From contig NZ_CP072827.1 in NCBI RefSeq assembly GCF_017916255.1, positions 6,969,501-7,033,500 of the forward strand: DNA of 64,000 nt, given 5' to 3'. Source of the DNA: Streptomyces mobaraensis NBRC 13819 = DSM 40847 (lineage in GTDB: Bacteria; Actinomycetota; Actinomycetes; Streptomycetales; Streptomycetaceae). The stretch's first letter is position 1. Every line of letters begins with the position of its first letter. Below, piece after piece: positions 30,253 through 56,736 of this stretch. The notes beneath the pieces are model-generated. The model saw only the letters and a program-made list of their open reading frames with translations, made no database searches and was not told the DNA's origin. A program made the translations under genes and the position numbers.

Positions 30253-30515
30253 GGCCAGAGATCCTGTCCCACCGGAGCGCTCCGGGCCAAGGTAGGGATC
30301 TCACAACACCGCGTGTCCAAGCTGGGTGGATCACGACATGCTGATCATGCGCGGGAAAGGCTAGTTTGAGGGTCGGCCGTACTCGGCCCGGTGAAACGAC
30401 CTCGCGGCGATTTATGTGAATCCCACAGATGAGCCCGGGGACGCACCCGGACCGGCACGGTACGCACACCCGAAGCACGTACCCCACAGGGACCGCACAG
30501 GAGCCGGGACGGCCG

Positions 30516-36682: not shown

Positions 36683-39600
36683 TTGTTACGCTCCACGGAA
36701 AGGCCGGGTCCGGCGCCCGCCGTCGAACCCTTCGTCCTCGCCCGGCGTGAGGACGTCGCCTTGCGCCTGTTCGTCTTCCCGCACGCGGGCGGTGGCCCGC
36801 AGACCTTCCGCACTTGGCCGGCCGGGTTGCCGGACGACGTCGAGACGGTCTCCTACACCCTTCCAGGGCGTGGCAGGCGCCAGGACGAACCGCCCTACCA
36901 GGACTGGCCGTCGCTCGTCGCCGACCTCGTGCGCTGGGTCGAACTGCACGACGACGGCGCCCCGTTCGCCTTGTTCGGCCACAGCTTCGGGGCCCTCCTC
37001 GCCTTCGACGTCTGCCGGGAGCTGATCCGGGCGGACGGACGCCGGCCGAGCGCCCTCCTCCTCTCGGCCCACCGCGCCCCGCACCTCCCACCGGACACGG
37101 TCAAGCACTCCCTCCCCGAGGACGTCTTCACCGGCCACGTCCGCGACTGGGGCCTCGTCCCCGAGGACCTGCTCGCCGACGAGGAGGTGCTCCGGCTGCT
37201 GCTGCCCCCGCTCCGGGCGGACCTGCGGCTCGACGAGACATACCCCTGCCGCACCGGCGACGGGACCGGCGTCCGGCTCGATGTCCCCTGCGCGGTCTAT
37301 GGCGGCACCGCCGACCCCACCGTCGACGCCGCGGAACTCCACGCCTGGCGCGCGCACTTCACCGACGACACGCCCTTCGACGTGGAACTCCTGCCCGGCG
37401 GCCACTTCTACCTCCGCGACTCCGAGGCCGCCCTGCTTGCCGGCGTCACCCGTCGCCTCGACCGGGTACGGGCCGCCGCCGGCCCCTCCGTCGCCCTCAC
37501 CCCCCGCGCGTACCCCGCACCGGACCGCTCCCTGTGGGCCCGCTTCCGCGACCGGGCCGCCGAGCACCCGGACGCCCCGGCGCTGATCGACGGCGACCGG
37601 CGGTGGACGTACGGCCGACTCGCCGACGACACGGCCGCGTTCGCCGCCGACCTGACCGCCCTCGGGGTCGCCAAGGGCGACGTCGTCGGCCTGTTCCTCC
37701 CGCACTCCGCCGAGTACTGCCTCGCCCTGCTCGGCTGCTTCGGTCTCGGCGCCCCCGCCTGTCTGCTGGAGAAGAACTGGCCGGCCTCGCTGCTCGCCCG
37801 GTTCCTCGACAGCGCGCGCGTCCGCACCGTCGTCACCACCCCCGAACTCGCCGGCCTCCTGCCGCCCGCGTACCGCGCACCGGAGCGCCTCCTCGTGCTC
37901 GACGGGGAGCGGCGCCCCGGCGGACGATGTCCGGACGACCGATGTCCGGACGACCGATGTCCGGACGGCCGATGTCCCGGCGGACGATGTCCGGACGACC
38001 GATGTCCGGACGACCGATGTCCGGACGGCCGATGTCCCGGCGGACGATGTCCGGACGCCGTCGCACCTCCCGCCCTCCCGGACGTCGCCCCCTCCGACAC
38101 CGCCCTGATCTCGATGACGAGCGGCACCTCCGGCACCCCCAAAGCCGTGCTCAACTCGCATCTCGGCTGCCTCTACTGCTTCGACGCCCGCCAGGAGCTC
38201 TACCCCTACGAGGAGACCTCCCGCGACGGCCTGAACGTCTTCTTCGCCTGGGAGTGCCTGCGCCCGCTCCTCCACGGCCGGCCGGCGGTGATCGTCCCCG
38301 ACGACCACATCGTCGACCCCGTCCGGCTGGTCGACACCCTGCGGCGGCAGCGGATCACCCGGATCGTGGTCCCGCCCTCCCTCTTCGAGAGCGTCCTCGA
38401 CCACCCCACCACCGGCCCCCGGCTGGCCGCCGAACTCGCCCATATGGAGATCGTCTTCCTGATGGGCGAGGTCGTGCCGGCCCGCGTCGTCGAGAAGGCG
38501 GTGGCCCTCCTCCCGCCGCACGTCCGGCTCGTCAACGCCTACAGCACCTGGGAGAGCCTGGACGTCTCCTACGCCGACCTCCTGCCCCGCCCGCCCGCCG
38601 CAGGTACCGCGCGCACACCCGCCTTCGCGCCGGTCGGCCGGCTCCTCGACGGCACCGCCGCCGTCCTCCTCGACGACCGGGGCGAGCCCGTCCCGCGCGG
38701 CGGTGTCGGCGAACTGCTCGTCGCCGGGCCCGGAGTCGCCGACGGCTACCTGGACGACCCCGCCAAGACCGCCGAACGCTTCGTCCCCTGCCCGCCCGCC
38801 CTCGCCGGTACCTCCTTCACCGAAGCGACGTTCTACCGCACCGGCGACCGCGCCCGGTTCCTGCCCGACGGCGGCCTGGAGGTCCTCGGCCGCGCCGGTG
38901 ACGTCGTCAAACTCCGCGGCTTCAAGGTGTCGCTGCGCGCGGTCGAGAGCGTCCTGGAGGATCAGCCGGACGTCTCCCGGGTGATCGTCCGGCCCGTCCC
39001 GGACGAGCGCACCGGGCAGCCCGCCGCCCTCGTCGCGTACGTCCTGGGGGAGCGGGGCCGGCCCTCGGACACCGTCCTCGCCCGCACCCGCCGCAAGGCC
39101 GCGCGCGACCTCCCCGAGTACGCCCGCCCCCGGCACGTCCTCGCCCTCGACGCCCTGCCCCTCAGCGGCGGCGGCTCCCGCAAGCTCGACCTCGCGGCCC
39201 TCCCCGCGCCCCCCGGGGAACCGGGGTCCGCCACGGCCGGCGAGGCGCTCACGACGACGGAACAGCGCGTTGCCCGCGCCTGGTCGGAGGTGCTCGGCGT
39301 CCGTTCCGCCGGCCCCGACGACGACTTCTTCGCCCTCGGCGGCGACTCGCTCGCCGCCGCCCGCCTCTCCGGCCTGCTCGCCGAGCGGTACGGGGTCTCC
39401 CTCCCCGTCGTCGACGTCTTCCAGTACCCCGTGCTCCGGGACCTCGCCGCCCACTGCGCGGGCGGCCGGCGGGAGCGCGAACCCGCCCCGGAGCCCCGGC
39501 GCCGGACACCCCGGCCGCCGACCACCCGGCTCGCGATCGTCGGCATGGCCGGCCGCTTCCCCGGGGCACCCGACCTGGACGCCTTCTGGGACAACCTGCG

Positions 39601-42600
39601 CCACGGCACCGACTCCCTCACCACCTTCACACCGGAGTACCTACGGCGGAAAGGCGTCCCGGAGGACGTTGTGACCCACCCGCGGTGGGTCCCCGCCGCC
39701 CAACTCGTCGACGATGCGGACAAGTTCGACGCGGAGTTCTGGGGGATCGGTCGGCGCGAGGCCGTCACCATGGACCCCCAGCACCGCGTCTTCGTGGAAA
39801 CCGCCTGGCACGCCCTCGAACAGGCCGGCTACGCCCGGCGGAACAACCCCTACCGCCGGCGCACCGGCGTCTTCGCGGCCTGTGGCATCGACGGCTACCT
39901 GGTCCACCACCTCAAGGGCGGCGGACTGACTCAACCCCTGGATCCGGCAGGGCTGTTCCTCACCGAGATCGGCAACGAGAAGGACTACATCGCCACCCGC
40001 GTCGCCTACCTGCTGGACCTCGGCGGCCCCGCCGTCACCGTCACCTCCGCGTGCAGCAGCGCCCTCGTCGCCGTCGCCCAGGCCGCCCAGTCCATCGTCT
40101 CCGGCCAGTGCGACATGGCCGTCGCCGGCGCCTCCGCCCTCACTTTCCCCAACTTCGGCTACCGCTACGAGGAGGGGCTGGTGGGCAGCGCGGACGGCCG
40201 CGTCCGCCCGTTCGACGCCGACGCGAGCGGCACCCTCTTCGGCGACGCCGTCGGAGCCGTCGTCCTCAAGCGCCTCGACGACGCCCTCGCCGACGGGGAC
40301 CACGTCTGGGCCGTCCTGACCGGCTTCGGCGTCTCCAACGACGGCCGGATGAAGGCCGGTTACACCGCGCCCAGCGCACGGGCGCAGACCCAGTGCGTCT
40401 CCGACGCCCTCACCATGGCCGGGATCGACTCCGGACGCCTCTCCTACGTCGAATGTCACGCCACCGCCACCCACGTGGGCGACGCCATCGAACTCAAGGG
40501 CCTCCACGACGCGTTCGAACGCCACCGGGACGACGAGCGGCCGCCGCGCACCGGCGGCTGCGCCCTCGGCAGTGTCAAGGGCAACATCGGGCACGCCAAC
40601 TGCGCCGCCGGCATCACCGGCCTCATCAAGACCGTGCTCTGCCTGCACCACCGGGAACTCGTGCCCACCGTCCACCACGACACGCTCAACCCCAAACTGG
40701 TCGACTTGGTGGACTGCGACGGCTCGCCGTTCACCGTCCGGCGCACCCACGGGCCGTGGACCGTCGCCGACCCGGACACCCAGCTCCCGCGCCGCGCCGG
40801 GGTGTCCAGCTTCGGCATCGGCGGCACCAACGCCCACGTCATCCTGGAGGAGGCGCCGCGGCCCGCGCCGGACGAGGAGCCGGAGCCCGCCGCGCCCGGC
40901 ACCCCGCACCTGCTGACGGTCTCGGCCCGGAGCGCGTCCGCCCTCCGGCGCAACGCGGACGCCCTGGCCCGGCACGTCGAGGGGCTGCCCGACGGGGAAC
41001 TCGCCCCCGCCGTCCGCGCCCTGCACCTGACCCGGGAGTCCCACCCGCTCCGCGCGACCGCCGTGATCACCGAGGGCGCTGCCGACGGGCTCCGCCGGCT
41101 GTCCGCCGAACCGCCCGCCACCGCCCGCCGGGGCCGCGCCGCCACCGTGGCGTTCTGCTTCTCCGGACAGGGCTCGCAGACCGCCGGCATGGCCCGCGGC
41201 CTGTACCGGGGGCACGCGGACGGCGGCCGGTTCCGCCGCCACTTCGACGCGGCCTGCGCGAGCCTGGCCCGGCACCTGCCCGAGGACCCGGCCGCCCTCG
41301 TCCTCGGCGCCGACGACACCTCCGTGACCCGGCCGGTCACCACCCAGTGCGGGCTGTTCGCCGTGGAGTACGCCCTCGCCACCACGCTGACGGAACTCGG
41401 CGTCCGGCCCGTGGCCGTCGCCGGCCACAGCATCGGCGAGTACGCGGCGGCGGCGCTGACCGGGCTCCTCACACTGGACGAGGCGGCGGAACTCGTGGCC
41501 GTCCGCGCCAGGGCGACCGAGGAACTGCTGCCCGGCGAACCCGGCGGCATGCTCGGCGTCGTCGGCGACGAGGAACGGCTCGCCCGCTGGCTGGAGGGCC
41601 GCACCGGCCTCTGGCCGGCCGCCGAGAACGCGCCCGGCCGCGTGGTGCTGTCCGGCACGCCGGACGCCCTGCGCCAAGCGCGTGAGGAACTGCCCGCCCT
41701 CGGCCTCACCTGCCGCCCGCTCCCCGTCTCCCACCCCTTCCACAGCCCGCTCATGGCCCCGGTCGCCGCCCGGCTCGACGCCGCCGCGGCCGGCCTCCCG
41801 GCCCGGGTCCCGGCCGTGCCGACGGCGAGCAACCTCACCGGCACCTGGCTCGACGCGGGCCACCGGCCCGACACCTACTGGGGCGCCCACCTCACCTCCA
41901 CGGTCCGGTGGCGGGACGCCGTCGGCACGCTGCTCCGCTGGGAGCCGGACCTCGTCCTGGAGATCGGCCCGGGCCGCGTCCTGACCACCCTCACCCACAA
42001 GTGCCTGGACGCCCGTGCCGAGCCGGGCCCGGTGCCGCTCGCCACCATGCCGTACGCCGCCGACCCCGGCCGGGACGACGGCACGGCCTTCCTCGAGGCG
42101 CTCGGCGACCTCTGGCGGCACGGCGCCGACGTCGACCTCGCCGCCCTCCACGAGGGCGAACGCCCCCGGCACCGCGTCCTGCCCGCCTACGGCTTCGACC
42201 GCGTCAGCCACTGGACGGACCCCGACGCCTCGCCGTACGTCGACGGCACCCCCGAGCCGGAGCCCGCCCAGGACGGCCCGCTGGTGCGCTTCGCCGCCAA
42301 GCCGGACGCGCGGCTGCGGCTGTACTGCCTGCCGTACGCGGGCGGCGGCGCCGACGCGTTCCGCTCCTGGGCGTGTACCGCGCCCCCGTGGCTGGACGTC
42401 GTCGCCGTCGAACTCCCGGGCCGCGCGGGCGACACGGCACAGCCGCTGCCGGACGACGCCTTCCTGGCCCGGCTCGCCGACGCCGTCCGCGCGGACGCCG
42501 GCCCGGCCCCGGTCGCCTTCTGCGGCCTGAGCCTCGGCGCGTCGCTCGTCGTCGACCTGCTCGGCGGCCCGCTCGCCGACTGGGCCCGCGACGGCCGCGT

Positions 42601-44845
42601 CACCGCCGTCTCCGTGGTCGGCCGCGCCCCGCTCGCGCCGGACGCCCCGGCGGACGCCGCACCGCCGGAGAGCTACCTGATGGCCCCCGACGAACTGCGG
42701 GACGACCCCCGGTGGCGCCGTGAGGTGCTGCCGCTCCTCCAGGCGGACCTCGCCCTCGACGCCCGCGCCGAACGCCGCGCCGCCGGGCGGCGGGAGACCG
42801 GGGGAGCGCCGCTCGACTGCCCGCTCCAGGTACAGGCCGGCACCGACGACCCGTCCTTCCCCGCCGCGGCGGCGGTCGGCTGGGCCGCGTACACCACCAG
42901 TCCGATCGTCGAGACGCAACTCCACGAGGGCGCCCACGACTTCATGCTCCGGCACCGAGCGGACGTCCTCACCCGACTCACCGCCTTCCTCGACCGCCTC
43001 CTCCCCCACGACACCCCGGGCACGAGCCGGCTGCACGAGGTCCGCTGGGTGCCGCTCCCACGGCCGGCGCCCACCGGGGCGGCCCTCGCCGCCCCCGGGC
43101 CGGCGCCCGAGGCCGCCGTCGGCGGCATGGCTCCGGCCGTGCCGTCCGCTCGCTCGGCGCGGGACGGACAGTCCCCGCGCACCGGCCTCGCCGAGGGCGG
43201 GTCCGCCGAAGGCGGCCCGGCCGGGCTCCCGGTGGACGCCGTCGGGGCCGCGCGCACCGAACTCGACGCGGGCTGGGCCGCCGAAGCGGTGCGGCCAGGG
43301 GGCTCCTCCCCGGCGGGAGTGGCGGCCCAGACCGCCGCAGACCGTCCGGCCGGGCCGCCCCGGCCGCCCCGGCCCCCCGTGGAGCCCGGCGCGATCCCGT
43401 GGACCGTGCTCGACGCCGACGGGCCCGCCGCCGCGGCGCGGTTCCTGCGGGCCGCGCTCGTCGGGGCGGAGGCCGAGGCCGCCCTCGTCTGCCGGGCCGG
43501 GGAAGAGGACGACGCCGCCCGGCACTGCGCCGAGCTCCGGGACGTGCTCCTCTCCCTCGCGGACGCCGGGGCGCGCGGGCGGCTGACGGTCGTCCTGCCC
43601 GCGCGGGCCGCCTCCGGCCTGGCGGCGGGGATGACCCGGGCGTTCGCCCTGGAGGAGCCCGGGCTCGCGGTGCGCCGGATCCACGTCCACGCGTGGCCCG
43701 ACGACACGTCGTCGTGGCCGGACGGGCTGCTCCGGCGGGCGCGGGCGCACCTCGAGGAGACCGACCTGCTCCACCGGCGCGGCCATCTGCTCGGCCGGCG
43801 GCTCGTCCCCCTCGACCTGCCGGAGCTGCCTCCCGGCACCCTGGGCGCCGCCGACGGGAGCTACCTCCTCACCGGCGGCACCGGCGGCCTCGGGAGGGCC
43901 GTCGCCGACTGGCTGATCCACCACCAGCGGGTCGCCCCGGAGCGGGTGGTCGTCACCGGGCGGACGGACCCCGGCGACCTCCGTCCGGGTGTCCGGTTCC
44001 TGGCGGCGGACCTCGCCCGGCCGTTCGACGCGGCGGCGCTCGCCGCCCGTACCGGGCCGCTCGCGGGCGTCCTGCACCTCGCCGGCGCCCTCGACGACGG
44101 GATCCTGCGCAACCTGGACCCCTCCCGCTTCCCGGCCGTGCTCGCGCCCAAGCTCGCCCTGGCCCCGCTGACCGAACTCGCCCGGCACGCCGGCGCGCCC
44201 TGGATCGTCGCCTTCTCCTCCACCAGCGGCCTGCTGGGCGCCCCCGGCCAGGCCAACTACGCCGCCGCCAACGCCTGGATGGACGCCCACGCCACCTGGC
44301 GGACGCCCGGCGGCGGGCCGGCGGTCGTCTCCGTCGGCTGGGGTACCTGGGGCGACACGGGCATGGCGGCGCGCGACGCGAAGGCGCTGGAAGGGGCGCG
44401 GGCGGCCGCGGAGACGCCGCTGTCCACCGGGACCGGGCTCGCCCTGCTCGGGAAGGCCGTCGCCGCCCTGCTCTCCGGGGACACCGGGCCGCGCCACCTC
44501 GCGGCCTGCGAGGTGGACTGGGCACGGTCCCCGTGGGCCGGGACCCCGCTCGTCCGGGGGCTCCTGCCAACCGAACCACCAGAGCCCGCCGCTCCGGATC
44601 CGGCGAGGCCGTCGGACACCGGCCCGCGACCGGAGGACGAGGACGGCGTCCGCGCCTTCCTCAGCGGCTACGTCCACCGCTGGGACGCCTCCGAGCGCCT
44701 CGCGGACCTCGGCCTGGACTCCCTCGACTTCGCCCGTATGCGCGGCGACTTCGCACGCCGGTTCGGCAAGGACGTGCCGCTGGCCGACATCGCCCGGCCC
44801 GACCAGCGCCTCGGCGAGCTCCACGCGTACCTGTCGCAGCGCTGA
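36683..44845 (+). CDS. hybrid thiotemplate megasynthase TE-A-T-KS-AT-TE-KR-ACP (proposed gonyol synthase)
   Basis: A 2720-residue assembly line. Approximate domains: type II-like thioesterase 10-265 (GHSFG, Ser101); adenylation 280-835 ('SMTSGTSGTPK', 'YRTGDRAR', A10-type Lys); carrier 865-935 (GGDSL, Ser889); ketosynthase 945-1390 (Cys1124 in TSACSSA, plus HATAT and KGNIGHA histidines); acyltransferase 1485-1790 (GHSIG Ser1583, HPFH, malonyl-like); second thioesterase 1865-2105 (GLSLG Ser1950); ketoreductase 2390-2600 ('LLTGGTGGLGR', Tyr2526); acyl carrier at the C terminus (LGLDSLDF, Ser2680). The chemistry expected is one acyl starter, one malonyl extension and one ketoreduction. With the sulfonium-forming genes downstream, this fits DMSP to gonyol. 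The A domain lacks the Asp that normally holds an alpha-amine ('FFAWE' where FDxS is usual). The start is a TTG with GAGGCAGGGG upstream. Domain calls are firm; the substrate is inferred. Confidence 0.9.
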   Translation: MLRSTERPGPAPAVEPFVLARREDVALRLFVFPHAGGGPQTFRTWPAGLPDDVETVSYTLPGRGRRQDEPPYQDWPSLVADLVRWVELHDDGAPFALFGHSFGALLAFDVCRELIRADGRRPSALLLSAHRAPHLPPDTVKHSLPEDVFTGHVRDWGLVPEDLLADEEVLRLLLPPLRADLRLDETYPCRTGDGTGVRLDVPCAVYGGTADPTVDAAELHAWRAHFTDDTPFDVELLPGGHFYLRDSEAALLAGVTRRLDRVRAAAGPSVALTPRAYPAPDRSLWARFRDRAAEHPDAPALIDGDRRWTYGRLADDTAAFAADLTALGVAKGDVVGLFLPHSAEYCLALLGCFGLGAPACLLEKNWPASLLARFLDSARVRTVVTTPELAGLLPPAYRAPERLLVLDGERRPGGRCPDDRCPDDRCPDGRCPGGRCPDDRCPDDRCPDGRCPGGRCPDAVAPPALPDVAPSDTALISMTSGTSGTPKAVLNSHLGCLYCFDARQELYPYEETSRDGLNVFFAWECLRPLLHGRPAVIVPDDHIVDPVRLVDTLRRQRITRIVVPPSLFESVLDHPTTGPRLAAELAHMEIVFLMGEVVPARVVEKAVALLPPHVRLVNAYSTWESLDVSYADLLPRPPAAGTARTPAFAPVGRLLDGTAAVLLDDRGEPVPRGGVGELLVAGPGVADGYLDDPAKTAERFVPCPPALAGTSFTEATFYRTGDRARFLPDGGLEVLGRAGDVVKLRGFKVSLRAVESVLEDQPDVSRVIVRPVPDERTGQPAALVAYVLGERGRPSDTVLARTRRKAARDLPEYARPRHVLALDALPLSGGGSRKLDLAALPAPPGEPGSATAGEALTTTEQRVARAWSEVLGVRSAGPDDDFFALGGDSLAAARLSGLLAERYGVSLPVVDVFQYPVLRDLAAHCAGGRREREPAPEPRRRTPRPPTTRLAIVGMAGRFPGAPDLDAFWDNLRHGTDSLTTFTPEYLRRKGVPEDVVTHPRWVPAAQLVDDADKFDAEFWGIGRREAVTMDPQHRVFVETAWHALEQAGYARRNNPYRRRTGVFAACGIDGYLVHHLKGGGLTQPLDPAGLFLTEIGNEKDYIATRVAYLLDLGGPAVTVTSACSSALVAVAQAAQSIVSGQCDMAVAGASALTFPNFGYRYEEGLVGSADGRVRPFDADASGTLFGDAVGAVVLKRLDDALADGDHVWAVLTGFGVSNDGRMKAGYTAPSARAQTQCVSDALTMAGIDSGRLSYVECHATATHVGDAIELKGLHDAFERHRDDERPPRTGGCALGSVKGNIGHANCAAGITGLIKTVLCLHHRELVPTVHHDTLNPKLVDLVDCDGSPFTVRRTHGPWTVADPDTQLPRRAGVSSFGIGGTNAHVILEEAPRPAPDEEPEPAAPGTPHLLTVSARSASALRRNADALARHVEGLPDGELAPAVRALHLTRESHPLRATAVITEGAADGLRRLSAEPPATARRGRAATVAFCFSGQGSQTAGMARGLYRGHADGGRFRRHFDAACASLARHLPEDPAALVLGADDTSVTRPVTTQCGLFAVEYALATTLTELGVRPVAVAGHSIGEYAAAALTGLLTLDEAAELVAVRARATEELLPGEPGGMLGVVGDEERLARWLEGRTGLWPAAENAPGRVVLSGTPDALRQAREELPALGLTCRPLPVSHPFHSPLMAPVAARLDAAAAGLPARVPAVPTASNLTGTWLDAGHRPDTYWGAHLTSTVRWRDAVGTLLRWEPDLVLEIGPGRVLTTLTHKCLDARAEPGPVPLATMPYAADPGRDDGTAFLEALGDLWRHGADVDLAALHEGERPRHRVLPAYGFDRVSHWTDPDASPYVDGTPEPEPAQDGPLVRFAAKPDARLRLYCLPYAGGGADAFRSWACTAPPWLDVVAVELPGRAGDTAQPLPDDAFLARLADAVRADAGPAPVAFCGLSLGASLVVDLLGGPLADWARDGRVTAVSVVGRAPLAPDAPADAAPPESYLMAPDELRDDPRWRREVLPLLQADLALDARAERRAAGRRETGGAPLDCPLQVQAGTDDPSFPAAAAVGWAAYTTSPIVETQLHEGAHDFMLRHRADVLTRLTAFLDRLLPHDTPGTSRLHEVRWVPLPRPAPTGAALAAPGPAPEAAVGGMAPAVPSARSARDGQSPRTGLAEGGSAEGGPAGLPVDAVGAARTELDAGWAAEAVRPGGSSPAGVAAQTAADRPAGPPRPPRPPVEPGAIPWTVLDADGPAAAARFLRAALVGAEAEAALVCRAGEEDDAARHCAELRDVLLSLADAGARGRLTVVLPARAASGLAAGMTRAFALEEPGLAVRRIHVHAWPDDTSSWPDGLLRRARAHLEETDLLHRRGHLLGRRLVPLDLPELPPGTLGAADGSYLLTGGTGGLGRAVADWLIHHQRVAPERVVVTGRTDPGDLRPGVRFLAADLARPFDAAALAARTGPLAGVLHLAGALDDGILRNLDPSRFPAVLAPKLALAPLTELARHAGAPWIVAFSSTSGLLGAPGQANYAAANAWMDAHATWRTPGGGPAVVSVGWGTWGDTGMAARDAKALEGARAAAETPLSTGTGLALLGKAVAALLSGDTGPRHLAACEVDWARSPWAGTPLVRGLLPTEPPEPAAPDPARPSDTGPRPEDEDGVRAFLSGYVHRWDASERLADLGLDSLDFARMRGDFARRFGKDVPLADIARPDQRLGELHAYLSQR
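37922..38057 (+). repeat. in-frame tandem repeat inside the adenylation domain
   Basis: A 60-base unit is perfectly duplicated (37921-37980 and 37981-38040) and starts a third time for 17 bases. Each unit is itself four 15-base subunits (GATGTCCGGACGACC and variants), encoding RCPDD, RCPDD, RCPDG and RCPGG. The protein gains nine Arg-Cys-Pro-x-x blocks near residues 415-460, in a surface loop before the ATP-binding 'SMTSGTSGTPK' motif. Confidence 0.9.
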
Positions 44846-44891
44846 CCGAGCCGAGCCCACACCGTACACACGCACAGGGGGACACGAGCAC

Positions 44892-48076: not shown

Positions 48077-48089
48077 GAGGGGCCGCCGC

Positions 48090-49070: not shown

Positions 49071-49112
49071 GCCGGGCCGCCGGAAAACGAACCGAACGGA
49101 AGGAGCGGACCA

Positions 49113-50510
49113 GTGCAGCACGAGATCAGGCAGGACGACGGCGAGGCGCTCGTCGCCAAGGACGCGCGGCACGTCCTGCACCCCTGGGCGGACCTCTCCG
49201 CCCTCGGCACGGGCACGTCCCTCGTCGTCACCGAGGCGAGCGGCGTCGAGGTCGTGGACGCCGCGGGCCGCAAGTACCTGGACGCCATCGGCGGCATGTG
49301 GTGCGTGACCGTCGGCTACGGGCGGCAGGAGCTCGTCGACGCGATGAGCGCCCAGGCGTCGCGCATGCCGTACTTCACCCCGTTCGCCGACGTCTCCAAC
49401 GAGCCGGCCGCCGAACTGGCCGCCACGCTGGCCGAGCTGTCGCCGGGCGACCTGAACCGCGTCCACTTCACCACCTGCGGCTCCACCGCCGTGGACTCCG
49501 CCGTCCGGATCGCCCACCTTTACTTCGCCGCCCAGGGCCGCCCCGAGAAGCGCCACGTCCTCTCCCGGACCGACGCCTACCACGGCAGCACCTACCTGGG
49601 CGCCTCGCTGTCCGGCAAGGAGGCGGACCGGACGCGCTTCCACTACGAGAACGAGTGGGTGCACCACCTCGAGAGCCCGGGGTACGACCCAGACACCTCG
49701 CCGGTCACCGCGGCCGAGCGGCTGGCCGGGCTGCTCGAGGGAATGGAGGCGGCCATCGCCGCCCTCGGGGCCGACACCATCGCCTGCTTCGTCGCGGAAC
49801 CGGTCCTGGCCTCCGGCGGCGTCCTCGTCCCGCCGCCCGGCTATCACGAGGCCACCCGGGAGCTCTGCCGGCGCCACGACATCCTCTACATCTCGGACGA
49901 GGTCGTCACCGGCTTCGGCCGGCTCGGCCACTTCTTCGCCTCCGAGGCCCGCTTCGGGATCGTCCCCGACCTGCTGGTCACCGCGAAGGGGCTGACCTCC
50001 GGCTACCAGCCGCTGGGCGCCGTCCTGATCTCCGACCGGATCGCCGACGCCCTCGCCCGCACCGCCGACCCGGCCAAACCGGTCTTTTCCAACGGCTTCA
50101 CCTACTCCGGCCACCCGGTCGCCTGCGCCACCGCCCTCGCCAACATCGAGGTGATGCGGCGCGAGGACGTCTGCGGCCACGTCCGGGACGTCGGCCCGTA
50201 CTTCGTCGGCCGGCTCCGCGAACTGCGTGCGTCGCCGATCGTCGCCGCCGTGCGCGGCGACCACCTGATGGCCTGCGTCGAGTGCCACGTGCCCGGCGAG
50301 TCCGGGCCCACCCTGCGCAACCAGGCCCTCGCCGCCCGCGTCGACCGGCACTGCGAGACCTCCGGGCTCCTCGTCCGGCCCTTCGAGAACCTCTGCATCA
50401 TGTCGCCGCCCCTCGTCGTCACCAAGGGCGAGATCGACCGGATCGTCGACATCATGGCCGACGCGCTCGCCCGCGCGGAGCGCGACCTGCGGGACGAGGG
50501 GATCGGCTAG
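49113..50510 (+). CDS. class III PLP aminotransferase (proposed DMSP-amine aminotransferase)
   Basis: A 465-residue omega-amine type aminotransferase. Family marks: 'YLDAIGGMWCVTVGYGRQELVDAM' (about residues 50-73), 'FTTCGSTAVDSAVRIA', 'DAYHGSTYLGASLSGKE', 'ISDEVVTGFGRLGHFF' and the PLP lysine in 'VTAKGLTSGYQPLGAV' (about residue 292). It resembles omega-amino acid:pyruvate and taurine:pyruvate transaminases, which act on terminal amines. In context it should convert 3-dimethylsulfoniopropylamine to the aldehyde, a known step of bacterial DMSP synthesis via S-methylmethionine. GTG start with GAAGGAG seven bases upstream. Confidence 0.82.
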   Translation: MQHEIRQDDGEALVAKDARHVLHPWADLSALGTGTSLVVTEASGVEVVDAAGRKYLDAIGGMWCVTVGYGRQELVDAMSAQASRMPYFTPFADVSNEPAAELAATLAELSPGDLNRVHFTTCGSTAVDSAVRIAHLYFAAQGRPEKRHVLSRTDAYHGSTYLGASLSGKEADRTRFHYENEWVHHLESPGYDPDTSPVTAAERLAGLLEGMEAAIAALGADTIACFVAEPVLASGGVLVPPPGYHEATRELCRRHDILYISDEVVTGFGRLGHFFASEARFGIVPDLLVTAKGLTSGYQPLGAVLISDRIADALARTADPAKPVFSNGFTYSGHPVACATALANIEVMRREDVCGHVRDVGPYFVGRLRELRASPIVAAVRGDHLMACVECHVPGESGPTLRNQALAARVDRHCETSGLLVRPFENLCIMSPPLVVTKGEIDRIVDIMADALARAERDLRDEGIG

Positions 50511-50582
50511 CGGCGGAGGCGACGGCGACCACGTGCCACGACCCCCGCCCGGCACCGAAAGGTGACAGCGAAAGTGACAGCA

Positions 50583-52022
50583 ATGGAAGCACCCCCCGTC
50601 GTCCTGGACTGCCGCGGCCTGCCGCCCGCGCTCACCGTCCTCCGCGTCAAACAGGCCGTCTGCGCCGGACCGGCCCCCGACGCCCCGCTCGGCGTCGTCC
50701 TCGACCCGGAGTGCGGCCGGGACCGCCTGGCCGACGCCCTCGGCGCGGCGGCCGCGCGACGGCTGCGTTACCTGCCGCCGAGCGCCGTCGACGGACCGGA
50801 CCCGGCCGCCGCCCCACCGCCGGCCGCCTGGTGGCAGCGGCCCGACCTCCGGCACACCGACGGCCGGCTGCACCTAGGCCGTACCGACCTGGAGGCGCTG
50901 GCCGCCCGCACCGGCACCCCGGTCCACGTCCTCAGCGCCGACCGGGTACGGGAGAACGTCCGCCGGCTGGCCGCCGCGCTGGACGCGGCCGGCGTCGACC
51001 ACCGCATCCACTACGCGATCAAGGCGAACCGGTCCACCGCCCTCCTGACGTACCTGCGGACCCTCGGCCTCTGCGGCGTCGACGTCTGCTCGGCGGGGGA
51101 GTTGCGGCACGCCGCGGCCTGCGGGTTCCCGGCCGACGCGATCTCCTTCACCGGCACCTCGCTCTCCGCCCAGGACATCGACGTCCTCGCCCGCTTCGAC
51201 GGCCTGCGGATCAACCTCGACTCGCGCTCCTCCCTGGACGCCCTGGGCCGCGCCCGCCCCGGCCGCGAGGTGGGCCTGCGCGTCAACCCGGCCGCCGGCG
51301 CGGGCTACCAGGGCGATCCCCGGCTGAGCTACAGCGGCGCCCCCACCACCAAGTTCGGCGTCTACCGCGAGCACCTGGACGACGCCAGGGCCATCGCCGC
51401 ACGCCACGGCCTGAAGATCGTCCGGCTCCACTTCCACGTGGGCTGCGGCTGGCTCGACCCCCAGCTCGGCGAGCTGGAGGACGCCCTCGACGCCGCCGAC
51501 GCGTTCACCGCGCACTTCCCCGACCTGCGCGAGGTCAACATCGGCGGCGGGCTGGGCGTCCCCCACACCCCGGCCGACGCGCCCCTCGACCTGGACCGCT
51601 GGGCCGCCGCCGTCGCCCGGCGGTTCGCCGGCCGCGGCCTGACCGTCGCCGTCGAACCGGGCGACTACCTCGTCAAGGACGCCGGGCTGCTCCTCACCAC
51701 CGTCACGTACGTGGAGCGGCGCCGGGACGTGCTGTTCGCCGGGCTCGACGCCGGCTTCAACCTGGCCATGGAGCCCGTCTTCTACGGCCTGCCCTGCGAA
51801 CCCGTCGCGGTCACGCCCCGATGGGACGAGGGCACCGAGACGTACACCGTCGTCGGCAACATCAACGAGGCCCTCGACCAGTGGGCCGTCGACCACCCCA
51901 TGCCCCGGCTGCGCGAGGGCGACCGGGTGGCGCTGATCAACGCCGGCGGCTACGCCGCGTCCATGCGCTCCGACCACTGCCTCCGGGAAGCGGCCGGGGA
52001 CGTCCTGCTGATCGACCAGTAA
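50583..52022 (+). CDS. fold-III PLP decarboxylase (proposed S-methylmethionine decarboxylase)
   Basis: About 479 residues; residues 95-470 are the ornithine/diaminopimelate decarboxylase fold. The PLP lysine is in 'IHYAIKANRSTALL' (about residue 147), 'LHFHVGCGW' and 'VNIGGGLGVPH' bind the phosphate, 'AVEPGDYLVKDAG' follows, and 'INAGGYAASM' is the C-terminal strand. The usual 'CESxD' active-site motif reads 'GNINEALDQW', hinting at an unusual substrate. The first 90 residues are an extra domain I do not recognise. The expected reaction is removal of CO2 from S-methylmethionine, as in Streptomyces DMSP synthesis. The ATG at 50583 has GAAAG at good distance; an in-frame GTG at 50562 is possible. 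Confidence 0.8.
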   Translation: MEAPPVVLDCRGLPPALTVLRVKQAVCAGPAPDAPLGVVLDPECGRDRLADALGAAAARRLRYLPPSAVDGPDPAAAPPPAAWWQRPDLRHTDGRLHLGRTDLEALAARTGTPVHVLSADRVRENVRRLAAALDAAGVDHRIHYAIKANRSTALLTYLRTLGLCGVDVCSAGELRHAAACGFPADAISFTGTSLSAQDIDVLARFDGLRINLDSRSSLDALGRARPGREVGLRVNPAAGAGYQGDPRLSYSGAPTTKFGVYREHLDDARAIAARHGLKIVRLHFHVGCGWLDPQLGELEDALDAADAFTAHFPDLREVNIGGGLGVPHTPADAPLDLDRWAAAVARRFAGRGLTVAVEPGDYLVKDAGLLLTTVTYVERRRDVLFAGLDAGFNLAMEPVFYGLPCEPVAVTPRWDEGTETYTVVGNINEALDQWAVDHPMPRLREGDRVALINAGGYAASMRSDHCLREAAGDVLLIDQ

Positions 52023-52068
52023 CCGGGCGGGCGGCGCCCCGCCCGCCATCACCGGGAGGTTTGATGAC

Positions 52069-53034
52069 ATGCCGTCCGAGCACACGATGTTAGCCCCGGC
52101 GCCCGCCCCGGCCTCGGTACCGGACCCGGCCCCGGCCTCCGTGCCGAGCTTCACCTTCGACCCGTCCGACCCCTGGACGGTCACCTTCCAGGCCGGTCTG
52201 GAACGCGCCGGACTGCGCGGCCGGCGCGTCTACGAGGTCGGCGTCGGCAGCGGCGCCAACGTCCTGCACCTGCTGCGGCGGTGCGGCGCCGCGCACGTCA
52301 CCGCCAGCGACCTGGATCCCCGACTGCCGCCCCTCGCCCGGCGGTTCGTCATGGACGCCGCCCCCGGCCTCGCCGGCCGCTGCCGGTTCATCGAGGGATC
52401 CGTCAGCCTCGTCGACGGGCCCGCGGCCACGGAGGCGGTCGTCGCCGCGGACACCGTCGTGGCCTGCCTGCCGCAGGTGCCGGACCCCGGGGACGCGATG
52501 TACACCCGGTTCCGCGCCGCCCATCTGCGGACCGGCCCCGAGACCGGCGGCCCGCTCCGGATCACGGACCACGCGGCCCACTACTACCCGTGGTCCGCCT
52601 TCGACGACCACCCGTTCAACGCCGTGGGCCTCGGCCTGATCGAGGCGCTGCTCCGCCGCGTCCGCGCCCGCGCGCCCCGGGCCGAGGTGGTGCTCAACCT
52701 CGGCTGCCGGATCGGCAAGGACGTCCTGACGCGGCTGTTCCGCGCGCACGGCTACCGCCCCGAGGAGCTGGCCTCCCGCGTCGTCCCGCAGGACGGCCGC
52801 ACCGACATCACCTTCTTCGCCGCCCTGGAGGCGGCGCTGCGCGGCACCGGCCACGAGAAGGACTTCACCTGCTCCTTCTCCGCCGACCCCGAGGGCCGCC
52901 GGCCGCTCTCGGCCACCGAGGCCGCCGACCGGCTCGCCGCCGACCCCGGGACCCCGGTCTTCCACGAGATCTGCGTGCTGCGCGGCCGGCCCACCGCTTT
53001 TGACGACGTCCCCGACGAGGAGGACCGGCGATGA
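52069..53034 (+). CDS. SAM-dependent methyltransferase, methionine S-methyltransferase-like
   Basis: A 321-residue methyltransferase. After a Pro/Ala-rich 35-residue start come 'WTVTFQAGLERAGLRGRRVYEVGVGSGANVLHLL' (SAM motif I near residues 57-63), 'TASDLDPRLPPLARRFV' and 'VVACLPQVPDPGDAM' (about residues 129-143). Then 'NAVGLGLIEALLRRVRARAPRAEVVLNLGCRIGKDVLTRLFRAHGY' follows. These blocks match, in order, the N-terminal domain of plant methionine S-methyltransferase (IVGCIPQILNPNPEAM; GLGLI; FNMGGRPG). Plant enzymes carry a large C-terminal aminotransferase-like domain; this one does not, as in bacterial MmtN. It should make S-methylmethionine from methionine, the entry to the pathway. Its stop overlaps the dioxygenase start by 4 bp. 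Confidence 0.8.
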   Translation: MPSEHTMLAPAPAPASVPDPAPASVPSFTFDPSDPWTVTFQAGLERAGLRGRRVYEVGVGSGANVLHLLRRCGAAHVTASDLDPRLPPLARRFVMDAAPGLAGRCRFIEGSVSLVDGPAATEAVVAADTVVACLPQVPDPGDAMYTRFRAAHLRTGPETGGPLRITDHAAHYYPWSAFDDHPFNAVGLGLIEALLRRVRARAPRAEVVLNLGCRIGKDVLTRLFRAHGYRPEELASRVVPQDGRTDITFFAALEAALRGTGHEKDFTCSFSADPEGRRPLSATEAADRLAADPGTPVFHEICVLRGRPTAFDDVPDEEDRR

Positions 53035-54074
53035 CGACCGAGGCGACCGCTCCCGCCTTCCAGCGCGTCGGACTCGGCGCGTCCTTCCGGCTGCCGGTCC
53101 GCGGGCGGAGGTTCCTCGCCGGGTCCGCCCACGAGAGCTTCCCGGACAGCGTGCCCGACGCCAACGGGATGATCCCGGCCTTCGCCGTCGCCGACCCGGC
53201 GTCCTCCGGGCTCACGGCGGCGGTCCGGGAGCTGATCGACGCGACGCTGCCCGCGTCCGGCGGCCTCCTGCTGCGCGGCCTGCCGCTGACCGGCAAGCCC
53301 GGCTTCGAGCGGCTGGTCGCGGATCTGGGATACCCGCCCATGGGCTACCGCGGCGGCATCGCCGTCCGCCGCAACGACACCGGGGCCGCGCTCGCCACCA
53401 GCGACGAGGACCCCCGCATCACCCTCTCGCCGCACAACGAGATGGCCTACCTGTCCGACCATCCGCGCAAGGTCTTCTTCTACTGCGAGACCGCGGCGGG
53501 CGAGGGCGGCGAGGTCCCCGTCAACGACATCCGCGAGACCGGCCGGATCCTCCCCGAGGGCCTCCGCGCGGAGTTCGCCGAGCGGGGCGTGCGCTACCAC
53601 CGGAGACTGGCACGCACGGCGACCGCGGGCGCCATGGGCTGGACCGAGACCTTCGGCACCGAGAACAAGGACGACGTCGCGGAGCACCTGGCCGCGTCCG
53701 GCCACGTCTTCCGGTGGGGCCCCGGCGACGAACTGCACTACCACTACCGCCGCGACGCCTTCACCACCCACCCCGAGACCGGCGAACGGCTCTGGTTCAA
53801 CCAGATCACCGAACTCCACAGCTCCTACTGGCGCGCACACCCCGACTTCCCCACCGACCTCCCTGACCACGCCTACCCCGCGACCACCAGCTACGGCGAC
53901 GGCGAGCCCATCGACGAGGACACCATCGCGTTCCTCCGCGGCCTCCTCTGGCGCACCACACACGCCGTACGAATGCGGCCGGGGGACGTCCTGGTCCTCG
54001 ACAACCAGGTGCTCCAGCACGGGCGGTTCGCCTTCACCGGGCCGCGCCGCCACTTCGTCAGCCTCACCCGCTGA
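53031..54074 (+). CDS. TauD/TfdA-family Fe(II)/2-oxoglutarate dioxygenase (SyrP-like)
   Basis: A 347-residue dioxygenase. The iron triad is His135 and Glu137 in 'LSPHNEMAYLSDHPRKVFFYCE' (an HxE rather than HxD form, as in SyrP-type hydroxylases) plus His330 in 'LVLDNQVLQHGRFAF'. An Arg for 2-oxoglutarate lies just after (GPRRHF). 'GGEVPVNDIRETGRIL' is also typical of this branch. SyrP relatives hydroxylate beta or alpha carbons of carrier-bound or free acids. I infer hydroxylation of gonyol to gonydiol. The ATG overlaps the upstream stop (ATGA), so expression is coupled to the methyltransferase. Confidence 0.82.
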   Translation: MTTEATAPAFQRVGLGASFRLPVRGRRFLAGSAHESFPDSVPDANGMIPAFAVADPASSGLTAAVRELIDATLPASGGLLLRGLPLTGKPGFERLVADLGYPPMGYRGGIAVRRNDTGAALATSDEDPRITLSPHNEMAYLSDHPRKVFFYCETAAGEGGEVPVNDIRETGRILPEGLRAEFAERGVRYHRRLARTATAGAMGWTETFGTENKDDVAEHLAASGHVFRWGPGDELHYHYRRDAFTTHPETGERLWFNQITELHSSYWRAHPDFPTDLPDHAYPATTSYGDGEPIDEDTIAFLRGLLWRTTHAVRMRPGDVLVLDNQVLQHGRFAFTGPRRHFVSLTR

Positions 54075-54151
54075 CCCCGCCCCTCGTGCCGCCGTCCGTC
54101 GGGCCCCGCGCCCGGCGGACCCGCCCTCGTGTACCGGAAGGACGAACGCCC

Positions 54152-55330
54152 GTGCGGGTGTCGAACCCCCTGTCCAAACCCGCCCTCAAGCCCGAACGGC
54201 CGTGGTTCTCCTCCGGCCCCTGCGCCAAGCCGCCCGGCTGGGACCCCGGCGATCTCAAGGGCGCCTTCGTCGGCAGGTCCCACCGCCACCCCGAGGGTCG
54301 CGCGCGGCTCCGCGAGGTCATCGAGACCTCCCGCCGGCTGCTCGGCCTGCCGCCCGACCACCGGCTCGCCATCATCCCCGGCTCCGACACCGGCGCCGTC
54401 GAGACCGCCCTCTGGAACCTTCTCGGGCACACCGGCGTCGAGGTGTGCGCCTGGGAGAACTTCGGCCTCACCTGGCTCCACGACATCGTCGAGCAGCTGC
54501 GCGTGCCCGACGTCACCGTCCACTGCGCCGCCTCCTACGGCGGCCTGCCGGACCTGAGCGCCGTCGACTTCTCCCGCGATGTCGTCTTCACCTGGAACGG
54601 GACGACGTCCGGCGTCCGCGTCCCCGACGCCGACTGGATCCCCGCCGACCGCGACGGACTCACCATCTGCGACGCCACCTCCGCCGTCTTCGGCATGGAC
54701 GTCGACTTCGCCAAGCTCGACGTCGTCACCTGGTCGTGGCAGAAGGCGCTGGGCGGCGAGGGCGCGCACGGCATGCTCGCCCTGTCCCCGGCCGCCGTCG
54801 AGCGGCTGGCGGTCTTCCGGCCGGACCGGCCGATTCCCAAGGTGTTCCGGATCGCCCGCGACGGCGCGCTCCTCGACGAGGTGTTCGACGGCTTCTTCGT
54901 CAACTCGCCGTCCATGCTGGCCGTCGAGGACGTCCTCACCGCCCTCGACTGGGTGGAGCGGATCGGCGGGACGCCCGCCACCGTCGCCCGGTCGCGCGCC
55001 AACCTGGACGCCGTCGCCCGCTGGGTGCGCGCCACCCCCTACGTGGAGTTCCTGGCCGAGGACCCGAGGACCGTCTCGCCCACCAGCATCTGCCTCCGCT
55101 TCACCCACCCCCGCTTCACCGCCCTCCCGGCCCCGGAACAGGCCGCGTTCGCCCGCCGGGTGTGCGCCCGGATCGAGGAGAACGGCGCCGGGTACGACAT
55201 CGGCGCCCATCGCGAGGCGCCCCCCGGCCTGCGGATCTGGGGCGGGCCCACCGTCGACACCGCCGACGTCGAGGCCCTGCTGCCGTGGATCGACTGGGCG
55301 TTCGCCCAGACCCTGGGGGAGTACGCGTGA
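54152..55330 (+). CDS. SerC-like phosphoserine aminotransferase (alpha-proteobacterial type)
   Basis: A 392-residue class V aminotransferase. 'KPERPWFSSGPCAKPPGW' at the start, 'GRSHRHPEGRARLREVIE', 'IIPGSDTGAVETALWNLLG', 'VFTWNGTTSGVRVPDADWIP' and the PLP lysine in 'VTWSWQKALGGEGAHGML' (about residue 198) are the signature of the alternative SerC group. The known reaction is glutamate-dependent transamination of 3-phosphohydroxypyruvate to phosphoserine. A second SerC inside a biosynthetic operon, next to a glycerate-type kinase and a phosphatase, suggests it acts on a phosphohydroxypyruvate analogue. The GTG at 54152 gives the family N terminus and has AAGGA upstream. It overlaps the next gene by 4 bp. 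Confidence 0.85.
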   Translation: MRVSNPLSKPALKPERPWFSSGPCAKPPGWDPGDLKGAFVGRSHRHPEGRARLREVIETSRRLLGLPPDHRLAIIPGSDTGAVETALWNLLGHTGVEVCAWENFGLTWLHDIVEQLRVPDVTVHCAASYGGLPDLSAVDFSRDVVFTWNGTTSGVRVPDADWIPADRDGLTICDATSAVFGMDVDFAKLDVVTWSWQKALGGEGAHGMLALSPAAVERLAVFRPDRPIPKVFRIARDGALLDEVFDGFFVNSPSMLAVEDVLTALDWVERIGGTPATVARSRANLDAVARWVRATPYVEFLAEDPRTVSPTSICLRFTHPRFTALPAPEQAAFARRVCARIEENGAGYDIGAHREAPPGLRIWGGPTVDTADVEALLPWIDWAFAQTLGEYA

Positions 55331-56205
55331 ACCCGGCACCCGACGCTCACGCGGCCGAACTCCTCCGCTTCGCCGAACGCCTCGCCGACGAGAGCCGCGC
55401 CGTCCTCGCCGCGGCGGCGGCCGAGGTGACGCGGGTCGACGTCAAGGCGGACAACAGCTTCGTCACCGCCACCGACCGCGCCATCGAGGCCCGGCTGCGT
55501 GCCCGCATCGCCGACGCCTACCCCCACCACGGCGTCCTGGGCGAGGAGTTCGGGTCGCACGGCCTCGACGCGGACGTGGTCTGGGTCCTGGACCCGGTCG
55601 ACGGCACCGCGCCGTTCATCGCCGGGATCCCGGTGTACGGCACGCTCATCGGGGTGGCCCGGGGCGGCCGGCCCTGGCTGGGCGTCCTCGACTACCCCGC
55701 GACCGGGGACCGCTGGGTGGGCGTGGACGGCGTCCTCGCCGAACGCAACCGGGTCCCCGTCCGCACCCGCCCCTGCCCCCAACCCGCCGCCGCGCTCGCC
55801 ACCTGCTCCAACCCCGACTTCTTCGGCCCGGACGAGCGGCCGGCGCTGGCCCGGGTCCGGGACCAGGTGCGGTACACGCTGTACGGCGCCAGCTCGTTCG
55901 CGTACGGGCTGCTCGCCGCGGGCCGGACGGACCTGGCCGTCGACAGCGGCCTGAAGCCCTACGACGTCTTCGCGCCCGCCGCCGTCGTCGGGGGCGCGGG
56001 CGGGGTGCTGACGGAGTGGTCGGGCGCCCCGCTCGGCCTGGACACCCACGGCCGGGTCGTCGCGGCGGGCGACCCGGAACTGCACCAGGCGGCCCTGGGC
56101 CTGCTGGGCGGGGAGGGCCCCGGGGTCTGGCATGATGCCCCCGCCGGACTGCCGACGGGAGAGACAGGCGATCGATGGCCTCCGAGGACATGTACCGCAA
56201 GTTGA
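55327..56205 (+). CDS. inositol-monophosphatase/HisN-family phosphatase
   Basis: A 292-residue magnesium-dependent phosphatase. Metal sites are visible: 'GVLGEEFG' (Glu, about residue 75), 'WVLDPVDGTAPFIAGIPVYGT' (DPxDGT, residues 89-94) and 'SGLKPYDVFAPAAVVGGAGG' (the WDxxA-type Asp). 'DNSFVTATDRAIEARL' is the N-terminal part. HisN and related enzymes remove phosphate from small amino-alcohol or sugar phosphates. After the SerC-like enzyme it would release the free amino acid, mirroring SerB in serine synthesis. The GTG overlaps the SerC-like stop (GTGA). Its last 31 bases overlap the YbaK-like gene. Confidence 0.83.
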   Translation: MNPAPDAHAAELLRFAERLADESRAVLAAAAAEVTRVDVKADNSFVTATDRAIEARLRARIADAYPHHGVLGEEFGSHGLDADVVWVLDPVDGTAPFIAGIPVYGTLIGVARGGRPWLGVLDYPATGDRWVGVDGVLAERNRVPVRTRPCPQPAAALATCSNPDFFGPDERPALARVRDQVRYTLYGASSFAYGLLAAGRTDLAVDSGLKPYDVFAPAAVVGGAGGVLTEWSGAPLGLDTHGRVVAAGDPELHQAALGLLGGEGPGVWHDAPAGLPTGETGDRWPPRTCTAS

Positions 56206-56663
56206 TCGCCCTGCTGGACGAGCGGGGCGCCACCTACCGGGTGATCGAACACGAGCCGGAGGGGGTGACCGAGGCGGTCAGCCGGCTGCGCGGCCACGAC
56301 CCCGGGCAGGCCGCCAAGTGCATGGTCGTGATGGTCAAGGTGGGCAAGAAGGTGACCCGTTACGCGGCGGCCGTCATCCCGGGCGACAAGCGCGTCGACT
56401 TCGCCAGGATGAAGGCCCTGTACGGCGGGACCTACGCCGGGTTCGCGCCCAAGGAGGTGGCCGAGGAACTGGCCGGGACGCCGGTGGGGACCATCCCGCC
56501 GTTCTCCTTCGACGAGCGGCTGCCCCTCTTCGTCGACCCCGAACTCTTCCGGCACGACGAGCTGTTCTTCAACGCGGCCCGCTTCGACCGGACCATCGCG
56601 CTGGCGACCGAGGACTACCGGTCCATCGCCCGGCCCCGTGCCGAGCGGATCGCCCAGCCCTGA
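56175..56663 (+). CDS. YbaK/ProX-type aminoacyl-tRNA deacylase
   Basis: A 162-residue single domain of the bacterial prolyl-tRNA-synthetase editing (INS) superfamily. The conserved lysine is in 'AAKCMVVMVKVG' (Lys48), and 'AAAVIPGDKRVDFARMKAL' and 'VGTIPPFSFDERLPLFVDPEL' are family blocks. Members clear mischarged tRNAs: YbaK Cys-tRNA(Pro), ProXp-ST Ser- or Thr-tRNAs. It overlaps the phosphatase gene by 31 bases and is the last gene before the operon's hairpin, so it belongs to the pathway. I infer self-protection against a serine/threonine-like product amino acid. It could instead be a housekeeping editor caught at the operon end. Confidence 0.83.
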   Translation: MASEDMYRKLIALLDERGATYRVIEHEPEGVTEAVSRLRGHDPGQAAKCMVVMVKVGKKVTRYAAAVIPGDKRVDFARMKALYGGTYAGFAPKEVAEELAGTPVGTIPPFSFDERLPLFVDPELFRHDELFFNAARFDRTIALATEDYRSIARPRAERIAQP

Positions 56664-56669
56664 GGACGG

Positions 56670-56704
56670 GACGGGCCCGCCGTCCGCGTGACGGCGGGCC
56701 CGTC
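56670..56704. terminator. perfect hairpin ending the biosynthetic operon
   Basis: GACGGGCCCGCCGTC, a 5-base loop and GACGGCGGGCCCGTC form a perfect 15-bp stem six bases after the YbaK-like stop, between it and the convergent azlD. It should stop transcription from both sides and marks the right end of the operon. Confidence 0.85.
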
Positions 56705-56736
56705 CGGGTCCCGGAACCGGCCGCCGTGGGATGGGA

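Follow-up and report, generated by a model that had tools for sequence, protein, structure and literature searches.

What does an operon make in which genes for a methionine S-methyltransferase-like protein, a megasynthase, a second ketol-acid reductoisomerase (KARI) and a tRNA-editing domain stand together? The question is raised by eleven genes at positions 36683-56663 of a 64,000-nucleotide stretch of the Streptomyces mobaraensis NBRC 13819 = DSM 40847 genome. The whole of this stretch, the window of this report, corresponds to C1:6969501-7033500 of a single-contig genome of 7,574,085 bases. Over 376 residues the transglutaminase encoded there is identical to PDB 3IU0, the S. mobaraensis enzyme. 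The original prediction had methionine converted via dimethylsulfoniopropionate (DMSP), gonyol, gonydiol and a cyclopropanol acid into the amino acid cleonine, and the sequence tests described below agree with this route and its predicted product. The operon probably makes cleonine from methionine and malonyl-CoA with one transamination, and the tail of the pathway would run via phosphorylated intermediates.

Reading frames and the G+C content at third codon positions (GC3) bear out that all eleven genes lie on the forward strand, and every protein family named beforehand was found. The four proposed start/stop overlaps are all present: ATGA between the kinase and the DAO-type oxidoreductase genes and again between the methyltransferase and TauD genes, GTGA between the serC-type and inositol monophosphatase (IMPase) genes, and 31 nt between the IMPase and YbaK genes. 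The single closing hairpin exists as well; for positions 56660-56720 the folding energy is -49 kcal/mol (z -5.6), and none of 200 shuffles was as good. Domains of the megasynthase are abbreviated as TE (thioesterase), A (adenylation), T (thiolation), KS (ketosynthase), AT (acyltransferase) and KR (ketoreductase); PLP stands for pyridoxal phosphate and FAD for flavin adenine dinucleotide.

36683..44845, + strand: megasynthase TE-A-T-KS-AT-TE-KR-T, 2720 residues, predicted to convert DMSP to (S)-gonyol (Pfam, conserved motifs)
44892..46163, + strand: P-loop kinase, D-glycerate 3-kinase/Tda10-like, predicted to phosphorylate trigonic acid at its cyclopropanol oxygen (profile versus PDB)
46160..48076, + strand: GlpD-like FAD oxidoreductase, 638 residues, predicted oxidase of the 2-hydroxyl group in the phosphate ester (Pfam DAO, PDB profile matches)
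48090..49070, + strand: KARI-like cyclopropanol synthase, BurG type, as predicted from BurG bit scores and tree
49113..50510, + strand: class III aminotransferase, predicted for the DMSP-amine step (PF00202, NF005447)
50562..52022, + strand: fold III PLP decarboxylase, predicted for the S-methylmethionine step (PF02784/PF00278)
52069..53034, + strand: predicted MmtN-type methionine S-methyltransferase (match to PDB 7vvv)
53031..54074, + strand: TauD-type dioxygenase, predicted gonyol hydroxylase with a BurC-like role (PF02668, motifs)
54086..55330, + strand: SerC-type aminotransferase, predicted to act on the phosphorylated keto acid (TIGR01365)
55327..56205, + strand: IMPase-fold phosphatase, HisN-like, predicted for the last dephosphorylation (PF00459, TIGR02067)
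56175..56663, + strand: YbaK/ProX-type aminoacyl-tRNA editing domain, predicted self-protection (PF04073)
56669..56705, + strand: closing hairpin with a 16-bp stem (folding versus shuffles)

The co-occurrence of these genes is more than chance; eleven or ten of the functions recur in the six other genomes with loci long enough to judge. Scanning genome contigs with an alignment of the kinase yielded seven loci. All eleven genes are found in S. yanglingensis, Actinacidiphila bryophytorum, A. cocklensis and Nocardiopsis chromatogenes, where gene order is conserved from the megasynthase through SerC. Agrobacterium vitis carries all eleven functions in ten genes and Nitrospirillum iridis ten of the eleven, and a 7.7-kb contig of a Melainabacteria metagenome-assembled genome contains five before it ends. 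Among 392 genomes sampled from the genus, a search with the kinase profile found the operon solely in the genome of the window.

At the start of the proposed pathway, methionine would be S-methylated by the MmtN-type enzyme and then decarboxylated and transaminated to DMSP aldehyde, which an enzyme encoded outside the operon would oxidise to DMSP. When the methyltransferase was compared with PDB chains, 7vvv, which we take to be MmtN (its PDB name is S-adenosylmethionine (SAM)-dependent methyltransferase), was matched with 330 bits and the next chain with 20 bits. The resemblance read originally from the letters is thereby confirmed; the enzyme fits the MmtN type and is predicted to act on methionine. 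The class III aminotransferase (PF00202) exceeds the cut-off of NF005447 (672 versus 618 bits), the decarboxylase (PF02784/PF00278) reaches 228 bits with the lysA model, below its cut-off of 298, and both fit the DMSP route, for which they are predicted. The work of Liao and Seebeck from 2019 on the S. mobaraensis DMSP genes is said to stop at DMSP. Synthesis of DMSP by S. mobaraensis enzymes is already in print; PMC7496086 cites that work (its ref. 14b).

The A domain of the megasynthase would load DMSP, and the polyketide synthase (PKS) module would add a malonyl unit and reduce the product to gonyol. Of the proposed architecture, A-T-KS-AT-KR-acyl carrier protein plus two thioesterases, the domains hold and the order has been refined to TE-A-T-KS-AT-TE-KR-T. 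Pfam detects two thioesterase stretches, the better of which is N-terminal (residues 28-248); the second was placed by eye between AT and KR, at about residues 1870-2110. The A4 loop, LN[VA]FFAWE, lacks Asp235 in seven of seven megasynthase homologues, and Asp627, the LDD motif of the KR and GHSFG of the first TE are each present in all seven. A multiple alignment that includes four ordinary A domains encoded in this genome shows the loop to be two residues short (F--FAWE versus the FDxSxWE type) and Asp627 to stand ungapped at a place like that of GrsA residue 330, BurA itself not being in the alignments. A pairwise alignment with gramicidin synthase LgrA likewise has no Asp at the 235 place, and the multiple alignment agrees with the motif reading. 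According to PMC7496086, BurA has no Asp235, its hydrophobic loop is shorter, and an acidic residue (Asp606) is there for the sulfonium. By its loop, the A domain of the operon fits this DMSP-activating BurA type, to which we provisionally assign it. LDD motifs mark B-type KRs, so that by our reckoning (S)-gonyol is to be expected; according to PMC9359912, the dioxygenase BurC takes this isomer as substrate. The TauD enzyme (PF02668), with HNE and HGR motifs in seven of seven sequences, would then hydroxylate gonyol to gonydiol.

From gonydiol, a BurG-type KARI would expel dimethyl sulfide and thereby close the ring of trigonic acid. The KARI of the operon fits this role of a cyclopropanol synthase, and its proposed kinship with the BurG of the bur cluster held up in comparison with PDB chains (326 bits with BurG, 7pcc/7pce, versus 209 bits with the next KARI, 5e4r). 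The database search provided the best 120 of 247 matches, from 8000 candidates scored. The tree (n=121) contains 114 of 119 KARI matches, five having been dropped for length or fusion, together with the KARIs of the window and of five loci and the strain's own ilvC; the BurG chain is absent from it and is represented by P0077 and P0078 from Burkholderia ubonensis. KARIs with Met-Phe at 128-129 (MF), including that of the window, group in a clade with 65 members (support 0.965), and KARIs with Met-Tyr (MY), including the Burkholderia ubonensis homologues, in a clade with 13 (0.84); the two clades join into a larger one of 78 (0.995). The window KARI has Phe129 where BurG has Tyr133, and Pro occupies this place in 42 of the 43 other KARIs of the tree, the strain's own ilvC among them. 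PMC9359912 names Tyr133 of BurG as the cation-pi partner of the sulfonium. The catalytic Glu (228 in the window, 232 in BurG) is not diagnostic because it is present in 121 of 121 KARIs. As a side observation, 42 KARIs of the tree outside the MF and MY clades (e.g. P0070, P0101, P0104) show about 37-50% identity, carry Pro in 41 of 42 cases and are distinct from the strain's own ilvC.

Co-location of KARI, kinase and YbaK genes was judged by a proxy, namely longest contigs of equal size, on contigs of at least 12 kb. The count drew on 60 of the 61 kinase homologues (E 1e-5, among 8000 candidates scored) and 55 of the best 120 YbaK matches. MF-type KARI clusters share a contig with the kinase in 26 of 36 cases, with a top YbaK match in 17 and with either in 30, and none of the seven MY-type KARIs does so with kinase or YbaK. 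For finding further cleonine producers, the kinase and the MF-type KARI seem suitable as markers.

Serine is formed from glycerate via phosphoglycerate, phosphohydroxypyruvate and phosphoserine, and cleonine (1-hydroxycyclopropylglycine) differs from serine in carrying a cyclopropane at its beta carbon. The last four enzymes of the predicted route resemble this phosphorylated serine pathway. Trigonic acid may be regarded as a glycerate whose 3-carbon is part of a cyclopropane, and these enzymes would treat it as glycerate: the kinase would yield a 3-phosphoglycerate analogue, the GlpD-like oxidase a phosphohydroxypyruvate analogue and SerC a phosphoserine analogue, from which the HisN-like phosphatase would release cleonine. 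By chemical reasoning, phosphorylation ahead of oxidation would block opening or expansion of the ring in an acylcyclopropanol.

The individual tail proteins are consistent with this order of events. For the kinase no Pfam match was obtained at E 0.001; its profile matches the D-glycerate 3-kinases 6ckg (2e-13) and 7xpc (1e-10) in the PDB and also 1odf, presumably yeast Tda10, and one fusion protein (E 0.087). All four PDB matches of the GlpD-like profile are glycerol-3-phosphate dehydrogenases or oxidases. GlpD residues R54, H233, R317, R332 and K354, which we take to hold the substrate phosphate, correspond to R98, H333, R429, R446 and K467 (counted along the 2QCU alignment) and are invariant in eight of eight homologues. 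SerC scores 514 bits with TIGR01365 (cut-off 448), and Arg67 and Arg376, presumably its two phosphate-binding arginines, are invariant in six of six sequences. With 152 bits in PF00459, the phosphatase is a member of the inositol monophosphatase family. A separate housekeeping SerC is present (706 bits with TIGR01366 versus 63 for the operon copy), as is a housekeeping ilvC (218 versus 69 bits, C-terminal domain); with these copies elsewhere in the genome, those in the operon appear dedicated.

The last gene of the operon encodes a YbaK-type protein (PF04073, 76 bits, cut-off 25.5). K48, presumably the catalytic Lys, and a G..GxxPPF stretch are invariant in seven of seven YbaK-type proteins. 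The editing gene accompanies the operon in five of the six other genomes. In Agrobacterium vitis (L009:489-2030) KARI and YbaK editing domain form one protein, and Rhizobium lusitanum (P0115) has a KARI-YbaK fusion too, in a record without the N-terminal part of the KARI. For N. iridis, a tblastn search of the first 50.8 kb of the contig that carries the operon gave no YbaK, and an AlaXM-like protein (L055:3985-4638) with HxxxH and CxxxH stretches sits between phosphatase and KARI (67 bits, cut-off 300; PF07973 22 of 24 bits). The association of two unrelated editing families with the same pathway suggests that its product is an amino acid reaching tRNA. The editing gene may thus serve as self-protection; the YbaK protein would cleave cleonine from tRNAs wrongly charged with it.

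Just past the hairpin a block for AzlD, AzlC and a regulator begins, which stands apart from urease genes in two of 20 relatives:

56737..57066, - strand: AzlD exporter subunit, possible cleonine export, a weak link (PF05437)
57059..57856, - strand: AzlC exporter subunit, possible cleonine export, a weak link (PF03591)
57919..58377, + strand: AsnC/Lrp regulator beside AzlCD, divergent (PF13404/PF01037)

AzlCD is not supported as a fixed part of the operon: none was found by tblastn in L004-L010, L054-L059 and L061-L063, a weak negative in that the search missed an AzlC piece in L055 (N. iridis) that Pfam shows. This gene piece and an AsnC/Lrp regulator adjoin the AlaXM-like protein. On the other side of the operon, window positions 27669-31739 encode a class III aminotransferase next to a radical SAM/BATS protein and, on the opposite strand, a fold I aminotransferase-family protein, a biotin-type group by its looks.

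The genome contains 37 matches to the condensation (C) domain of nonribosomal peptide synthetases (NRPS), eleven of them at C1:85-130 kb. The proteins of the cluster there (C1:85765-129314; about 2632, 2681, 1066, 2162 and 688 residues) presumably agree with the bleomycin synthetases in size and domains. This bleomycin-like cluster lies near one chromosome end and the operon about 0.55 Mb from the other. A 126-residue protein beside the cluster was considered as a bleomycin-binding protein and ruled out, as it is PhnA-like. Cleomycins are bleomycins with cleonine, and judged by its genes the strain may feed cleonine to the cluster. In N. iridis NRPS-PKS genes (L054:14-16179; C, A, KS, AT, methyltransferase, thioesterase) stop about 5 kb short of the first gene of cleonine type and constitute a possible cleonine-using assembly line. 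On the operon contigs of the five other genomes, no C domain lies closer than 130 kb to the operon, two of these contigs being short (40 and 99 kb) and a third ending near the operon; a neighbouring NRPS as a rule was therefore discarded, N. iridis being the only case.

Several points weigh against cleonine as the product of a phosphoserine-like route. The product is a prediction from the genes. Oxidation of DMSP aldehyde had to be placed outside the operon because Pfam detects no aldehyde dehydrogenase among the eleven genes, the rest of the genome not having been searched; the original claim that one hypothesis gives a job to every gene holds insofar as each gene can be assigned, but not every step has a gene. 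The pairwise alignment with LgrA sets the Glu of FFAWE, and not a gap, opposite the Asp235 place, and puts Asp627 within a two-residue insertion. The GlpD-like protein (96 bits, NCBIfam cut-off 360) is a remote relative of GlpD and not GlpD itself, and its predicted structure is poor (predicted local distance difference test, pLDDT, 56; predicted template modelling score, pTM, 0.41). His66 of the phosphate motif of SerC is Phe in two of six sequences. The phosphatase is closest to HisN, with 236 bits in TIGR02067 and thus under the cut-off of 275. As both score below NCBIfam cut-offs, the substrates of phosphatase and GlpD-like enzyme are not fixed by family. Against self-protection, relatives of the YbaK protein at 62-73% occur in many Streptomyces (best 120 of 1004 matches), the genome has three further tRNA_edit matches, and the AlaX replacement concerns a single genome with a score under the cut-off.

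These points bear on the alternatives to differing degrees. The YbaK protein could be an ordinary tRNA quality control factor placed beside the operon by chance, as its many Streptomyces relatives and the further tRNA_edit matches would allow; we hold this to be unlikely in view of its presence at five of six other loci, its fusion to KARI in A. vitis and the unrelated AlaX-like protein among the genes of N. iridis, where YbaK was not found. The remoteness of the oxidase from GlpD and of the kinase from D-glycerate 3-kinase, and a phosphatase that is merely HisN-like, would suit direct oxidation and amination of trigonic acid to cleonine, with kinase and phosphatase acting elsewhere or making a phosphorylated, inactive storage form. 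This is still less probable, since the GlpD-like enzyme and SerC keep the residues presumed to be phosphate-binding and the kinase and phosphatase genes lie with the others in six of six long-enough loci. A malleicyprol-like cluster, which would have the BurA-, BurC- and BurG-type steps in common with the operon, has next to no probability: Pfam finds neither a SET-domain methyltransferase nor a chain-fusion enzyme of BurF type among the eleven genes. The malleicyprol cluster was set aside on finding no BurB, BurF, BurJ or BurH type among the operon genes; the remainder of the genome was not searched for them.

More weight, on the doubtful side nevertheless, can be given to cleonine as a mere intermediate for an NRPS, for example for a bleomycin-like cluster leading to cleomycin, or to another trigonic acid derivative as product. 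The bleomycin-like cluster of the same genome and the NRPS-PKS genes of N. iridis favour this, as does S. mobaraensis US-43, for which PMC6794829 reports bleomycin analogues. Against it stand the editing protein, which points to a pool of the amino acid in free form, and the lack of C domains near the operon in the other five genomes, three contigs giving a short view only. Tentatively, and with slightly more confidence than in an NRPS intermediate, the operon can be envisaged as a stand-alone factory for free cleonine with its own immunity by trans-editing and perhaps AzlCD export, which spread between Actinobacteria and Alphaproteobacteria, had its editor fused or exchanged, and ends in a rebuilt phosphorylated serine pathway working on a cyclopropanol. 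Free cleonine would then be an antimetabolite of serine/threonine-type tRNA charging.

The cleonine in valgamicin C is reportedly derived from DMSP (Little et al. 2024, ACS Chem Biol 19:660). The novelty of the operon was overrated in the original prediction because most of the surprise is already printed. The S. mobaraensis DMSP genes were aligned with the bur cluster in 2020 (PMC7496086) and the operon was called bur-like, its product unknown, in 2022 (PMC9135737). Likewise, burG orthologues and gonydiol genes were noted in nine other organisms (PMC9359912), the BurA, BurC and BurG steps were demonstrated for Burkholderia homologues (PMC7496086, PMC9359912), and cleonine was described as a constituent of valgamicin C (PMC13194151). 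We did not find described the finish that resembles phosphoserine synthesis, nor an editing gene that is linked to such an operon, fused or exchanged; in the mostly open-access literature, no title or abstract among the matches listed dealt with either or with the bleomycin synthetase proteins, and for editing genes in clusters a review of aminoacyl-tRNA-dependent enzymes (PMC12945691) came up. If cleonine formation by this finish is true, single genes can be assigned to the final steps towards a cyclopropanol amino acid, and the logic of serine synthesis is reused on a reactive ring. tRNA proofreading would be a self-resistance mechanism worth testing, and the bleomycin-like cluster and the operon together would explain cleomycin-type products.

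Compared with the bur (malleicyprol) cluster, the predicted pathway shares the DMSP starter, the NRPS-PKS gonyol synthase, the dioxygenase and the BurG-type KARI. It differs in a class I MmtN-type methyltransferase where bur has the SET-domain BurB, and it has no BurF-type line but a kinase, a GlpD-like enzyme, SerC, a phosphatase and an editing gene. With valgamicin and cleomycin biosynthesis it would have cleonine with a cyclopropanol from DMSP in common. The methyltransferase, decarboxylase and aminotransferase are those of the DMSP genes reported for the same organism. The phosphorylated serine pathway has the same order of phosphoglycerate, oxidation, SerC and phosphatase; in the operon, however, the FAD-dependent GlpD-like oxidase stands where that pathway has SerA, dependent on nicotinamide adenine dinucleotide (NAD), the kinase would start from the free acid, and a HisN-like phosphatase takes the place of SerB. 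Finally, the editor agrees in family and conserved residues with YbaK/ProXp and AlaX trans-editing proteins, but it is borne by a biosynthetic cluster and, in rhizobia, forms one protein with a KARI resembling cyclopropanol synthases.

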